From Candidatus Bathyarchaeota archaeon (GTDB lineage Archaea > Thermoproteota > Bathyarchaeia > 40CM-2-53-6), in the NCBI GenBank assembly GCA_005888635.1, contig VBAW01000016.1:1-64000 (forward strand): a DNA stretch of 64,000 bases, read 5' to 3'. A program made the translations under genes and the position numbers. Positions 37,109-46,512 of the stretch are shown here, piece by piece (position 1 is the first letter of the stretch; the number at the start of each line of letters is the position of its first letter). A model generated the notes under the pieces. That model had not been told where the DNA came from, made no database searches, and was given only the letters and a program-made list of their open reading frames with translations.

Positions 37109-40100
37109 TTGAGTTTTGGTTCGAACAAACGCCTTATCCTCATACTTCCCATAATTCTAGCCTTCACACTGTTTGCGATCTTGCCGTCTGTTCCATCCGC
37201 TCACGCACAACTTACTGGTCTAGTCTGTATCACATCTTCCACGACAGCCACCAGTTGTCCTGCTAGTCCGCCTTCGCTTGGGCCGTTCACAGTCGGTTCG
37301 ACCTTTACAGTCGGTGTCTTCGTTCAGGGTTCTGATCCTATGGGTGGCTTCGACATCTTTGTCAACTCTTCCAACGCGTTTGTGAATCCTACTAGTGCAG
37401 CTCTCGGTACTCTGATCGTTACTCCATCGTTGACCTCTATCTGCATCAACGGCACACCCACAACCGGCTCGTGTACGGTTGGAGAGGCTAACGGTCCTGG
37501 TGTTGTCGAGGTTACTACGATTGAGAGTACGGGGGGTAATGAGTGTGGCGGTATCGCACCTTGCTCCGGTATGGCGTTTACCATAACGTATCAGGTGGTG
37601 GCCTCGACTCCGAGTAGCCCTATATCTTATCCCTCAGCTCCAGGCTGCGCAGCGGCGACGAGTGTCTCTGGAACAAGTGTTTGTGTTGCTGTGGACGACG
37701 CATTTGGAACCGTTCTCAATGAGAATATTCAGGGCGCCACCGTAACCCAAGCAGCAGTCACACACCCCACAAGCACAAGTGTCAGCTGCTCTCCCTCACC
37801 TGTGGTCGTTAACCAGGCTACGAGTTGTACTGCTACTGTCACTGACACTGCCGCCGGTCCGACCACTCCCTCCGGCTCTGTCAGCTTCACAACCAACTCC
37901 ACAGGCACGTTCAATCCAACCTCTGCGAGTTGCACGCTGGCAGCAGGTACAACCGCTGGGACTGCCACTTGCTCGCTAAGCTATACTCCAACGGTTACGG
38001 GTCATCATCTCATAACCGGCTCATATGGTGGAGACTCGACGCACTCGGCTAGCCAGGGCACGTTCACTATTCCAGTAACGCCTCCACCGCCTCACACGAC
38101 AACCACATTGCTCTCCTGTTCGCCTGGATCAGTGACCGTCAACGCGGCCAGTTCATGTACGGCGACAGTCACCGACCACTTCACAACGCCCACCACTCCG
38201 AGCGGAAGCGTGATCCTTGCAACCAATTCTACTGGAACCTTCACTCCGTTTTCTGCGAGCTGTACTCTAGCAGCAGGAACGATTGCTGGGACGGCATCTT
38301 GTTCAGTCTCCTACACGCCAGCAGTAATCGGTCATCATCTTCTTACCGGTTCTTACGGCGGAGACTCGACGCATTCCTCCAGCCAGGGAACCTTTCTCCT
38401 CGCCTCAACACTAGCTCCACCCCACACTACGACAACGAGTGTCACTTGCCTGCCCGTCTCCGTCACTACAGGCTCTACTTCCAGCTGTGCGGCCACGGTG
38501 ACTGACACTTCGTCGAGTCCCACCACTCCTTCCGGTACTGTTAGTTTCACCACGAACAGTACAGGCACGTTCAGCCCAACATCCGCCAGTTGTACTCTGT
38601 CCGCGGGTGCGACCGCGGGTACCGCCTCATGCTCTGTCAGTTATACGCCAAGTTCGACAGCGATCGGTCATCACTTGATAACCGGCACGTATAGTGGTGA
38701 TTCAGGTCACTCTACCAGTAATGGCTCGTTCAACCTTGTTGCAACTGCTCCTCCACCTCATCCCACGAGTACAACCATCCAATGTGCCCCACTATCAGTA
38801 ATGGTGAGTACGCCTTCCACTTGCACAGCGACAGTTACTGATACATCCGCATCAGGCGCGACGACTCCAGTGGGCTCTGTCAGCTTCACCACCAATTCGA
38901 CCGGCACCTTCAACCCGGTCTCTGCGAGTTGCGCTTTGTCCGCTGGCACCGCTGTCGGTACAGCCACATGCCAGATCACCTACACGCCGGGCGCTACTTC
39001 TGTAGGGCACCATCTCATAACAGGAAACTATGCTGGTGACTCGACCCACGTAGCTAGCTCGGGCTCGTTCAAACTCGGGGTAACAGCTGTCCCCCTCCAT
39101 ACGACAACAACTAGCGTTCAGTGCACACCGTCACCGGTCCAAGCCGGGGTTTCGACCAGTTGCACCGCAACAGTCACCGACACTGCCGTAACAGGACCAA
39201 CGACCCCCTCGGGTTCTGTGAGCTTCACGACCAACTCGACTGGTGCATTCAATCCGATCTCTGCGAGCTGTACTCTAACGGCAGGGGCAACTGCAGGTAC
39301 GGCCAGCTGCAGCGTGACCTACACGCCTACCGTGGCGGGTCATCACCTAATTACCGGCACCTACCAGGGTGATTCGACTCACGCTGTTAGTCAGGGAACA
39401 TTCCTGCTTGCAGCAACTCCTGCACCTCATTCGACGGGCACCAGTCTCCAGTGCTCTCCCGGATCCGTGCAAGTGAGTACGTCTTCTACATGTACAGTAA
39501 CGGCCACGGACACATCAGGGACTCCAACGACTCCCACAGGCACAGTCAGCTTCACCACGAATTCCACGGGCACGTTCAATCCAACCTCTTCGAGTTGCAC
39601 ACTGGCAGCAGCCACAACTGCTGGCACTGCAACGTGCCAGGTCAGCTACACACCGGGCGCGACCGCCGTTGGACATCATCTAATTACTGGAAACTACGCC
39701 GGAGATTCGACTCATCTAACCAGCTCGGGCTCCTTCAACCTGGCAGCGACCGCTGCGCCGCCTCCGCCTCCTCATCCAACAAGCACGACTATTCAGTGCT
39801 CACCTGCGCCCGTGCAGGTCAGCATAGCTACGAGTTGCACTGCAACTGTGACTGATACGTCTGCGACAGGCGCAACGACTCCTTCTGGGTCCGTCAGTTT
39901 CACAACTAACTCTACTGGAACTTTCAACCCGACTTCTGCGAGTTGCACTCTAGCAGCGGGCACTATTGCGGGTACGGCTACATGTTCTGTGAGCTATTCG
40001 CCCGGAGCATCGGCTGTGGGTCACCACTTGATTACCGGCACCTATGGCAGTGATTCGACTCATGCCTCCAGCTCAGGCGCGTTCAACCTCTTAGTGACCG

Positions 40101-42124
40101 CTGCCCCGCCCCCACCCCCGCATCCAACTTCGACCGCGATCCAGTGCTCCCCATCCCCAGTCCAAGTCAGCAGTCCGACCAGTTGCACCGCCACCGTCGC
40201 TGATACTTCCTTGACTGGTGTCACAGGGCCTACCGGTTCTGTCAGCTTCACAACCAACTCCACCGGCACCTTCAGCCCTACGTCTGCGAGCTGCACCTTA
40301 TCGCCAGGTACGATAGCCGGTACTGCGACCTGTTCCCTATCCTATACTCCGACCGTCGGAGGTCACCACCTGATCACTGGATCGTACTCGGGTGACGCTA
40401 CTCACGCGATGAGTTCAGGCATGTTCAACCTTGACACTACCACAGTTCCTCCCCCACCTCCTCACCCCACAAGCACGACTGTTCAGTGTTTCCCCTCATC
40501 CGTCCAGGTCGGCAATCCAACAAGTTGCACTGCCACGGTCGCTGATGCCTCCGCCACAAGTCCATCGACTCCCACTGGTTCCATCAGCTTCACAACTAAT
40601 TCTACTGGTACATTCAATCCAACCTCTGCAAGCTGCGCTCTAGTAGCGGGCGCTGCTGCGGGTAGCGCCTCATGCTCCGTGGCCTATACACCAAGCGTTT
40701 CGGCGGCTGGTCATCATCTCATGACTGGAAACTATCCCGGCGACTCGACCCACGCTACGAGTTCAGGAACCTTCACTCTTGAAGTGACCTCCACACCGCC
40801 CCCGCCCCCACACCCGACAACCACCACGGTCTCGTGCAGCCCTTCATCCGTCCAGCTCAACGTAGCAACGACCTGCGCTGCGACGGTCACGGACACTTCC
40901 ACGACCGGTGTGACAACGCCCACGGGTACAGTCATGTTCACGACCAACTCGACGGGAACCTTCACATCCGCCCCCACGTGCACTCTAGCTGGGACTATGG
41001 CCGGGACCGCAAGCTGCAACGTATCATACACTCCCACTGTCACTGGTCACCATCTGATCACCGGCTCTTACAGTAGCGACTCGACTCACCTAGCCAGCAC
41101 GGGTAGCTTCAACGTGGCTGTTTCCTCCGCGGCTCCTCCCCCGCTCCACTCAACGAAGATCGTTGTAACTTGCAGCCCTGGCTCGGCCTCGGTCAACACG
41201 TCCGCTAGCTGCACTGCTAGAGTGATCGACAATTCGACGAGTCCTACTGTTCCAGCTGGTACGGTGACTTTCACCACGAACTCTATTGGAACGTTCAATC
41301 CGTCATCCGCGACATGTACGCTCGTCGCGGGGAATGCTCCGAACCGGGCGGCCTGCTCCGTGGCCTACACCCCGACTTTTGCCGGTAAACATGTGATAAC
41401 TGGATCGTACGTTGGTGATTCAAGTCATGCTAAGAGCTCCGGTGGCTTCACCCTAAATGCGAGGTCTCCACACAGCGGATCTGCTATGCTGACATTCAAT
41501 GGCTCCGATCTGGACGACTTTGACAGCGGCGTCGGCCAGCTACATGTCCTAGTCAATGGCCAACTGGTCGCAGACATCCCTGCGGGCTTGAACCATCTCA
41601 TCGGGACTGGTGACTACCAACCCTACCAGAATAGAGCGGTCGAGTTTGGACCGTTCGACATCACCAGCCTGCTGGTTAGTGGCCAGAACACTATCCTGTT
41701 CAGGGACCCCACATCGTTCGACCACTTCGGTGTCGTAAGAAACGTGCGGATTGTTCAGGGCAGCAGCATACTGCTCGAGGCTCCCCGCGCGAGGGGCGTC
41801 TACCCAGGCTTCTCGTTCAGCTACACATTCTCCAGTCCACCACTCTCAATCAACAGCTTCACAAGCTCGTCGACAGCAGTAGCTTCGGACCAGGTCCTGG
41901 CCTTTATGGCCACGTACACTGGTGGAACAGCGCCGTTCACGTGCATGTTCAGGTTTGGGGACGGCGAGTCCATGACGCTTGCGGGTAGCGCTGGCGTATG
42001 TTCAGCGAGCCACGATTATGACCAGCCGGGAACGTTCACGGCAACGTTCATAGTCCGGGGCTCTAGCACTTCGGACCTCGCCCGTTCAAGGCTGACGATC
42101 AACGTTACCAGTAGCCCCAACTAA
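37109..42124 (+). CDS. Giant secreted cohesin-like protein with 11 Ig repeats and PKD-like C-terminus
   Basis: 1671 aa. The TTG start gives MSFGSNKRLIL and a signal peptide ending SAHA; TTG 37097 is possible. Residues 34-215 are the cohesin-like domain of the family. About 219-1451 are 11 Big_3_5-type Ig repeats of 100-115 residues, each with SCTATVTDT, SFTTNSTGTF, ASCTL, GHHLITG and YSGDSTH-like motifs, and mostly joined by Pro-rich linkers. Most repeats carry four cysteines at fixed places, suggesting disulfides. The C-terminal 200 residues hold a carbohydrate-binding-like domain (FNGSDLDDFDSG) and a PKD-like domain (FRFGDGESM). Probably a long fibrous adhesin or matrix protein. No membrane anchor or sorting signal is seen at its end. 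Confidence 0.85.
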   Translation: MSFGSNKRLILILPIILAFTLFAILPSVPSAHAQLTGLVCITSSTTATSCPASPPSLGPFTVGSTFTVGVFVQGSDPMGGFDIFVNSSNAFVNPTSAALGTLIVTPSLTSICINGTPTTGSCTVGEANGPGVVEVTTIESTGGNECGGIAPCSGMAFTITYQVVASTPSSPISYPSAPGCAAATSVSGTSVCVAVDDAFGTVLNENIQGATVTQAAVTHPTSTSVSCSPSPVVVNQATSCTATVTDTAAGPTTPSGSVSFTTNSTGTFNPTSASCTLAAGTTAGTATCSLSYTPTVTGHHLITGSYGGDSTHSASQGTFTIPVTPPPPHTTTTLLSCSPGSVTVNAASSCTATVTDHFTTPTTPSGSVILATNSTGTFTPFSASCTLAAGTIAGTASCSVSYTPAVIGHHLLTGSYGGDSTHSSSQGTFLLASTLAPPHTTTTSVTCLPVSVTTGSTSSCAATVTDTSSSPTTPSGTVSFTTNSTGTFSPTSASCTLSAGATAGTASCSVSYTPSSTAIGHHLITGTYSGDSGHSTSNGSFNLVATAPPPHPTSTTIQCAPLSVMVSTPSTCTATVTDTSASGATTPVGSVSFTTNSTGTFNPVSASCALSAGTAVGTATCQITYTPGATSVGHHLITGNYAGDSTHVASSGSFKLGVTAVPLHTTTTSVQCTPSPVQAGVSTSCTATVTDTAVTGPTTPSGSVSFTTNSTGAFNPISASCTLTAGATAGTASCSVTYTPTVAGHHLITGTYQGDSTHAVSQGTFLLAATPAPHSTGTSLQCSPGSVQVSTSSTCTVTATDTSGTPTTPTGTVSFTTNSTGTFNPTSSSCTLAAATTAGTATCQVSYTPGATAVGHHLITGNYAGDSTHLTSSGSFNLAATAAPPPPPHPTSTTIQCSPAPVQVSIATSCTATVTDTSATGATTPSGSVSFTTNSTGTFNPTSASCTLAAGTIAGTATCSVSYSPGASAVGHHLITGTYGSDSTHASSSGAFNLLVTAAPPPPPHPTSTAIQCSPSPVQVSSPTSCTATVADTSLTGVTGPTGSVSFTTNSTGTFSPTSASCTLSPGTIAGTATCSLSYTPTVGGHHLITGSYSGDATHAMSSGMFNLDTTTVPPPPPHPTSTTVQCFPSSVQVGNPTSCTATVADASATSPSTPTGSISFTTNSTGTFNPTSASCALVAGAAAGSASCSVAYTPSVSAAGHHLMTGNYPGDSTHATSSGTFTLEVTSTPPPPPHPTTTTVSCSPSSVQLNVATTCAATVTDTSTTGVTTPTGTVMFTTNSTGTFTSAPTCTLAGTMAGTASCNVSYTPTVTGHHLITGSYSSDSTHLASTGSFNVAVSSAAPPPLHSTKIVVTCSPGSASVNTSASCTARVIDNSTSPTVPAGTVTFTTNSIGTFNPSSATCTLVAGNAPNRAACSVAYTPTFAGKHVITGSYVGDSSHAKSSGGFTLNARSPHSGSAMLTFNGSDLDDFDSGVGQLHVLVNGQLVADIPAGLNHLIGTGDYQPYQNRAVEFGPFDITSLLVSGQNTILFRDPTSFDHFGVVRNVRIVQGSSILLEAPRARGVYPGFSFSYTFSSPPLSINSFTSSSTAVASDQVLAFMATYTGGTAPFTCMFRFGDGESMTLAGSAGVCSASHDYDQPGTFTATFIVRGSSTSDLARSRLTINVTSSPN
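37763..41460 (+). repeat. Eleven tandem Ig-domain repeats inside the giant gene
   Basis: The repeats are about 300-350 bp each and start with codons for HPTST or HTTTT followed by a cysteine-containing strand. Copies are diverged at DNA level but strongly alike as protein; copies 7-10 share a PPPPPHPT linker. The array could expand or shrink by recombination, so copy number may differ between strains. Confidence 0.85.
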
Positions 42125-42352: not shown

Positions 42353-42433
42353 TGGTGCGGGGGGTGGGATTCGAACCCACGAAGGCCTTCGCCACAGGGT
42401 CCTAAGCCCCTACCTTGCGGCCCACACCGCCAC
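42353..42433 (-). tRNA. tRNA-Leu (UAG anticodon), atypical or incomplete 5' half
   Basis: The 3' half is standard: CCA at 42353-42355, A73, acceptor strand CCCCCGC, T-arm GTGGG-TTCGAAT-CCCAC, a class II variable arm with a GGC/GCC stem, and loop CTTAGGA with anticodon TAG (42402-42404). The 5' half is not. Directly upstream only GTGGCGG (42427-42433) could serve as acceptor strand, with one mismatch and one G-U pair. The D-arm would then be about 7 bases short and lacks a partner for its 3' strand. A better acceptor, GCAGGGG, plus a CCTT that could pair with AAGG lies at 42469-42478. The gene may hold a D-arm intron or be a 3' fragment. Confidence 0.55.
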
Positions 42434-46180: not shown

Positions 46181-46318
46181 GAAAGCAGGCAGCATTAGTA
46201 AAGTGTCAACCCGAAAAATCGGCGTAGTGTTTTTGGGGTCTTACCCAAAGGTAAAAGAAACCGCCTTCGAAGACTTCGGTCGCTCCGGTGGTGTAGCCCG
46301 GTTTAGCATAGCGGCCTT

Positions 46319-46341
46319 TGCCTCAATGGTGTGGCGGCCAG
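46319..46341 (+). other. tRNA-Glu intron 1 (anticodon loop, between positions 34 and 35)
   Basis: 23 nt. GGCC (46313-46316) pairs with GGCC (46336-46339) as the 4-bp central helix. The three-base bulges are TTT (46317-46319) and AGT (46340-46342), and the inner helix is GCC/GGC. Cutting each bulge after its second base joins CTT to TCGA. The outer helix is weak. Not the usual 37/38 intron site. Confidence 0.7.
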
Positions 46342-46344
46342 TCG

Positions 46345-46384
46345 AGCCCTAGATCGGGGAGGCTTACGGGAGGACAAGCCCCAG
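46345..46384 (+). other. tRNA-Glu intron 2 region (near position 37/38), possibly two introns
   Basis: A net 40 bases must leave between the two GAGCC copies; the exact ends are ambiguous within that repeat. An inner 23-nt piece (46362-46384) has a BHB with GGGG/CCCC central helix, bulges AGG and AGA and a CTT/AAG inner stem. Its removal would leave 17 nt, where GGGG could then pair with CTTT of the anticodon loop (mostly G-U). Stepwise splicing is inferred. Confidence 0.5.
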
Positions 46385-46406
46385 AGCCGTTGATCGCGGG
46401 TTCAAA

Positions 46407-46428
46407 CGCGGCAGTAAGCTGCTGAAAT
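46407..46428 (+). other. tRNA-Glu intron 3 (T-loop, position 59/60)
   Basis: 22 nt. The outer helix is the T-stem itself (GCGGG/CCCGC). TTCA (46401-46404) pairs with TGAA (46423-46426) as the central helix, bulges are AAC and ATT, and GCGG pairs with CTGC inside. Cutting after the second bulge base restores a standard T-loop TTCAAAT. This is a complete hBHBh-type motif. Confidence 0.8.
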
Positions 46429-46512
46429 TCCCGCCCGGAGCACCATCATTCCGAATTTCGGTTAGTAGACAACCCTTCGACTAAGATGGTTTGGTCCTTG
46501 TCAATTGTCTAC

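Follow-up and report, generated by a model that had tools for sequence, protein, structure and literature searches.

Nested introns and a predicted order of splicing in a tRNA-Glu(UUC) gene of soil Bathyarchaeia

How a tRNA could be recovered from a gene that is interrupted within the anticodon, at the canonical 37/38 site and in the T-loop, and in what order the interruptions would have to leave, is the question raised by a tRNA-Glu(UUC) gene at positions 46282-46442 of the plus strand in a 64,000-nucleotide stretch of DNA (“the window”) from the genome of a soil Bathyarchaeia. The initial annotation held that this 161-bp gene reduces to a 76-nt tRNA-Glu(UUC) when 23, 40 and 22 nt are taken out, and it was right: the product is perfect, with all acceptor, D-, anticodon- and T-stem pairs present, the cloverleaf is complete and carries the anticodon UUC once spliced, CCA is encoded next, and ARAGORN reports the joined exons (46282-46318, 46342-46344, 46385-46406, 46429-46442) as tRNA-Glu(ttc). 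ARAGORN makes no tRNA call in the unspliced precursor or in the window, and the Rfam tRNA model, run over the whole genome, does not recover the gene. Standard tRNA finders can thus miss genes of this kind, and the tRNA sets of these genomes would then look incomplete. No Rfam family reaches its gathering score in the window; for this reason, and because the introns are only 17-23 nt long, a group II/III twintron was rejected. The features of the locus are as follows:

46247..46257, plus strand: promoter-like (BRE/TATA-like) element AAAGGTAAAAG, at -35 to -25
46282..46318, plus strand: exon 1 (tRNA positions 1-34), identical in most same-genus orthologues
46319..46341, plus strand: intron A, 23 nt, at position 34/35, inside the anticodon
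46342..46344, plus strand: exon 2 (U35 C36 G37)
46345-46384, plus strand: whole canonical-site (37/38) intron, 40 nt, with the inner intron as its 3' end
46345..46361, plus strand: 17-nt outer portion of the canonical 37/38 intron, with GGGG at 46356-46359
46362..46384, plus strand: inner (nested) intron, 23 nt, with a 3' splice site common to it and the outer intron
46385..46406, plus strand: exon 3 (A38 to position 59); nested relatives show no change in its anticodon-stem and variable-loop part
46407..46428, plus strand: intron D, 22 nt, at T-loop position 59/60
46429..46442, plus strand: exon 4 (position 60 to discriminator A73)
46443..46445, plus strand: encoded CCA end, CCA being encoded also in most same-genus orthologues

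The promoter-like element is kept as (A)AAAGGTAAA(A/T) at a similar distance in most same-genus orthologues, and may act as an archaeal promoter.

The annotation had placed the first and third introns in BHB-like motifs, with the T-stem as the outer helix of the third, and had recognized a further 23-nt BHB nested in the 40-nt insert. Each of the four excisions proposed here has two 3-nt bulges, a 4-bp helix and at least one flanking helix. Written with a slash at each splice site, the BHB of intron A is GGCC.TT/T..GGCC.AG/T, with an inner helix of 3 bp and an outer helix of 0, and because there is no outer helix an enzyme that accepts relaxed BHBs is required; that of intron D is TTCA.AA/C..TGAA.AT/T, with a 5-bp inner helix and the T-stem as outer helix. 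The inner intron has the motif GGGG.AG/G..CCCC.AG/A, in which CCCC lies at 46379-46382 and the inner helix pairs CTT with AAG. The motif of the outer 17-nt intron, CTTT.CG/A..GGGG.AG/A, appears only when both intron A and the inner intron have been removed; the GGGG strand pairs with CCCC first, and with C32-UUU35 once the inner intron is gone. When each intron was replaced by dinucleotide shuffles, with the exons fixed, the motif quality of intron A at 34/35 was matched in 0.44% of shuffles and that of intron D in the T-loop in 0.04%, which bears out both annotated motifs. A nested solution of the window's 40-nt insert arises in 1.8% of shuffles (0.07-3.6% per nested gene), a figure that is modest when taken alone; the weight comes from the relatives.

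A script that followed all BHB excisions of this definition (4-bp helix, two 3-nt bulges, at least one flanking helix), in all orders and to a depth of at most four, reached the UUC cloverleaf solely via four excisions. Once introns A and D had been taken out manually, exactly one two-step product of the remaining 40 nt is a tRNA, and no single excision of the 40 nt yields one, even with one central mismatch. The annotation had proposed that splicing is ordered through the pairing of GGGG with CTTT, and this stands in so far as the path is the only one to UUC and is conserved; what the proposal omitted is the removal of intron A, which splits C32-U35 at 34/35 and must therefore leave before the 37/38 excision.

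These observations are best explained, with high probability, by a functional tRNA-Glu(UUC) gene from whose transcript the endonuclease EndA cuts four introns, the exons presumably being joined by RtcB. Intron D, which has its own complete BHB, could leave at any time, independently of the others. Intron A and the inner 23-nt intron, whose own BHBs are already in the precursor, would be excised first; with both gone, C32-U35 would be continuous and GGGG free, and their pairing would create the last BHB at 37/38, from which the 17-nt remainder would be released. We infer the order and kinetics of splicing, the ligation and the expression of the gene from sequence. If the explanation is true, cells obtain a tRNA they need only through a series of cuts in a compulsory order, and one 3' splice site serves twice.

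Orthologues were read in 16 same-genus whole genomes (L032-L044, L046-L048) and in a sister genus (L045). The same tRNA-Glu gene is found in most same-genus genomes; its exons are near-identical across the 16 orthologues and its introns vary. Nested introns with 4/4 central pairs in both steps are present in the window and in 10 of these orthologues (L032-L040, L047), so the nesting noted in the annotation is conserved; at the inner site it is usually accompanied by an intronic sequence that copies the anticodon 5' stem. This copy, AGCGGC in L033-L040 (GGCGGC in L034), holds the inner BHB and pairs with GCCGUU of the exon; a longer inner hairpin takes its place in the window and L032. The partly duplicated exon (GAGCC..GATCG) to which the annotation drew attention is present, limited to this genome and its closest relative (L032/L061), and its first copy is intronic, because that stretch varies in other relatives and the exon copy is invariant; a reading of the first copy as exon was rejected on the same comparison.

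Among the remaining genes, the inner step has 3/4 central pairs in L048 and fewer in L046, by hand reading. Simple canonical introns are found in L042 and L045, and anticodon-arm introns are absent in L041, L043 and L044; because a single genus thus holds genes with no anticodon intron, with a simple canonical intron and with nested introns, the gain of an intron within an intron is traceable stepwise. The T-loop intron is kept in all read relatives but L046, and an extra T-stem intron (53/54) occurs in L044, L045, L047 and L048; since L047 combines nested, T-loop and T-stem introns, five excisions are needed there. The tRNA-Glu gene of L046 (G017, 1501-1700), which is without the T-loop intron, carries its insert within the acceptor stem on the 3' side (CCGGA...GC ACCA), a different site, so intron sites shift between close species. 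In distant genera of the order (L055, L057, L145), 27-28-nt canonical introns likewise resist one-step excision; their 3/4 nested solutions, seen by eye, were left out of the counts.

In a single-gene endA tree, G003, G008 and G012, none of which has anticodon introns, form a group (support 0.95) with the window genome and the genomes nearest to it, and the other nested carriers fall elsewhere. Either the nested intron was lost in the G003/G008/G012 lineage or it arose twice, and the differing inner architecture fits either history. The nested intron may have originated when the 5' half-site was duplicated in tandem.

Pair counts were made on a gap-free reduced alignment of nine distinct rows. 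In the inner central helix, 97% of cells are paired and both-sided (compensatory) changes occur at 3/4 pairs, a number reached in 8/500 shuffles; these covariation counts are small and the sequences are related. In the outer helix 100% of cells are paired, and all changes are one-sided, its exon side being fixed. In six relatives the minimum-energy structure predicted for the complete precursor already includes the inner BHB, and in three more it is at most 2 kcal/mol off. For the window precursor, the fold with the inner BHB is predicted to be 7.7 kcal/mol less stable than the minimum, because a competing 10-bp helix between the D-arm and the intron takes part of the GGGG strand. For the last-step BHB, built in the window on three G-U pairs and a single G-C, every nested gene shows a cost of 5-9 kcal/mol relative to the predicted minimum. 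These predicted folding energies are the chief weakness of the proposed mechanism. The plain precursor fold has no significant stability (z -1.4) and was not counted as evidence.

A stretch of the outer intron is complementary to the D-arm GCCCGG in L034-L036, L038, L039, L047 and L048. The resulting D-arm/outer-intron helix beats shuffles in seven relatives (0.6-3.8%) and does no better than shuffles in L032, L033, L037, L040 and the window (without GGGG). It may be a folding guide or chance, and it was kept out of the explanation because it does not rise above shuffles in several genomes, the window included.

EndA-family genes are present in 46/46 genomes searched, most of which carry two. 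In the window genome the EndA alpha subunit aligns over 9-188, nearly its full length, to A. pernix 3P1Z, a heterotetrameric enzyme of the alpha-beta type, including the N-terminal insertion; the beta subunit is a separate gene, and an RtcB gene is present. Visual comparison with the M. jannaschii enzyme gave a putative catalytic Tyr, His and Lys in the alpha subunit, which together with beta may form an (alpha-beta)2 enzyme. EndA of the (alpha-beta) type tolerates relaxed motifs (PMC4090602), and heterotetrameric enzymes are associated both with relaxed motifs and with multiple introns (PMC4090602, PMC4033280). Under strict criteria this genome has other multi-intron tRNAs: Phe(GAA) with three introns, and Ala(UGC) and Gly(CCC) with two each.

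The assembly comprises 2.18 Mb in 159 contigs and is ~92% complete. The annotation had named another complete tRNA-Glu(UUC) gene, with this one unexpressed, as one finding that would count against it, and no such second gene was found in this assembly. Two tRNA-Glu(CUC) genes were found (G000 C30:4253, L164, and C38:4310, L165), both with D-loop and T-loop inserts; they are 98% (L164) and 86% (L165) like the tRNA-Glu(CUC) of G009. The 3' end of L165 reads CTA instead of CCA, and this gene may be a paralogue or derive from a contaminating strain. For the neighbouring acylphosphatase, the best relatives with a name come from the soil Bathyarchaeota MAGs BA_7, BA_12 and BA_22, all three of which have a tRNA-Glu gene within ~3 kb of it.

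Elsewhere in the window, 42356-42433 on the minus strand holds the 3' part of a Leu-like tRNA, with an encoded CCA, the anticodon loop CTTAGGA (UAG) and a long variable arm; no matching 5' part was seen within ~200 nt upstream, and the gene may have additional introns or one long intron, or may be split. The plus-strand ORF at 37109-42124, of 1671 aa, with many similar ~100-aa repeats and a signal-like start, probably encodes a large repetitive surface protein.

A tolerant endonuclease might instead take out the whole 40-nt canonical intron at once, GGGG/CCCC being an ordinary internal hairpin. The acceptance of relaxed motifs by (alpha-beta)-type EndA (PMC4090602) would permit this, as would the anticodon stem, which can still form around the intron with an outer helix of 7. 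We nevertheless regard it as unlikely: direct excision finds 0/4 central pairs in 11/11 fully paired nested genes, in each of which sequential excision has 4/4 in both steps, whereas the simple introns have 4/4 (L042, L051) or 3/4 (L045), and the inner motif has the 3-nt bulges of a BHB, a shared 3' site and covariation.

The gene itself could be a copy that is silent or in decay, with the functional tRNA-Glu(UUC) located in an unassembled part of the genome or made otherwise, and the state of the assembly (~92% complete, 159 contigs) and the failure of the tRNA finders used to detect the precursor would both agree with this. Such a copy is very improbable, however, given that all exon pairs are intact, that the exons are near-identical in 16 same-genus orthologues in which the introns vary, that the promoter-like element is conserved, and that the relatives searched yield the same locus as their UUC gene. 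Least credible of all is a multi-product gene in which alternative excision also gives the anticodon UUG or CCC: two weaker four-step paths do end in UUG and CCC cloverleaves, but in relatives the identity of the exons and the preserved motifs at 34/35 and 37/38 speak for UUC alone.

Beyond the working gene with four excisions, we lean slightly towards a more general reading, that of a recursive-splicing design in which a canonical intron has a second 5' half-site, an anticodon 5' stem copy and a strand that takes part first in one BHB and then in another, which would make the cell use one 3' splice site twice in a fixed order; the design may have more than one origin within one genus, and through it a tRNA gene would gather up to five introns.

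The literature search returned nothing on tRNA introns of Bathyarchaeia and no match for four or five excisions, a strand used twice, an intronic stem copy or this lineage, the comparison with nested introns being made through reviews. In the group II/III twintrons of euglenid plastids an intron lies within an intron and the inner one is removed first; the arrangement is alike, whereas here the splicing is BHB splicing by a protein enzyme, with no ribozyme, and the likeness is one of analogy only. The parallel that the annotation drew with multi-intron tRNAs of Thermoproteales holds in that such tRNAs are known, PMC4033280 (citing Sugahara 2008; Fujishima 2010) describing the same many non-canonical introns, several per gene, and a heterotetrameric EndA, which this genome probably shares; the host here is of a different lineage, soil Bathyarchaeia. 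Nested introns and their ordered removal in archaeal tRNAs are already known: in the nested BHB introns of archaeal pre-tRNAs described in PMC3978253 (citing Sugahara 2007; Tocchini-Valentini 2009), the last motif forms only after the others are processed, which is the same BHB-after-BHB logic, and iterative intron removal is built into tRNAscan-SE 2.0 (PMC8450103). Set against these systems as the reviews present them, the genes described here differ in requiring four excisions, or five in L047, where the stated maximum is three introns per tRNA gene (PMC8450103, PMC4033280), in using one strand for two BHBs, one after the other, that have their 3' splice site in common, and, in most relatives, in adding an intronic copy of the anticodon 5' stem.
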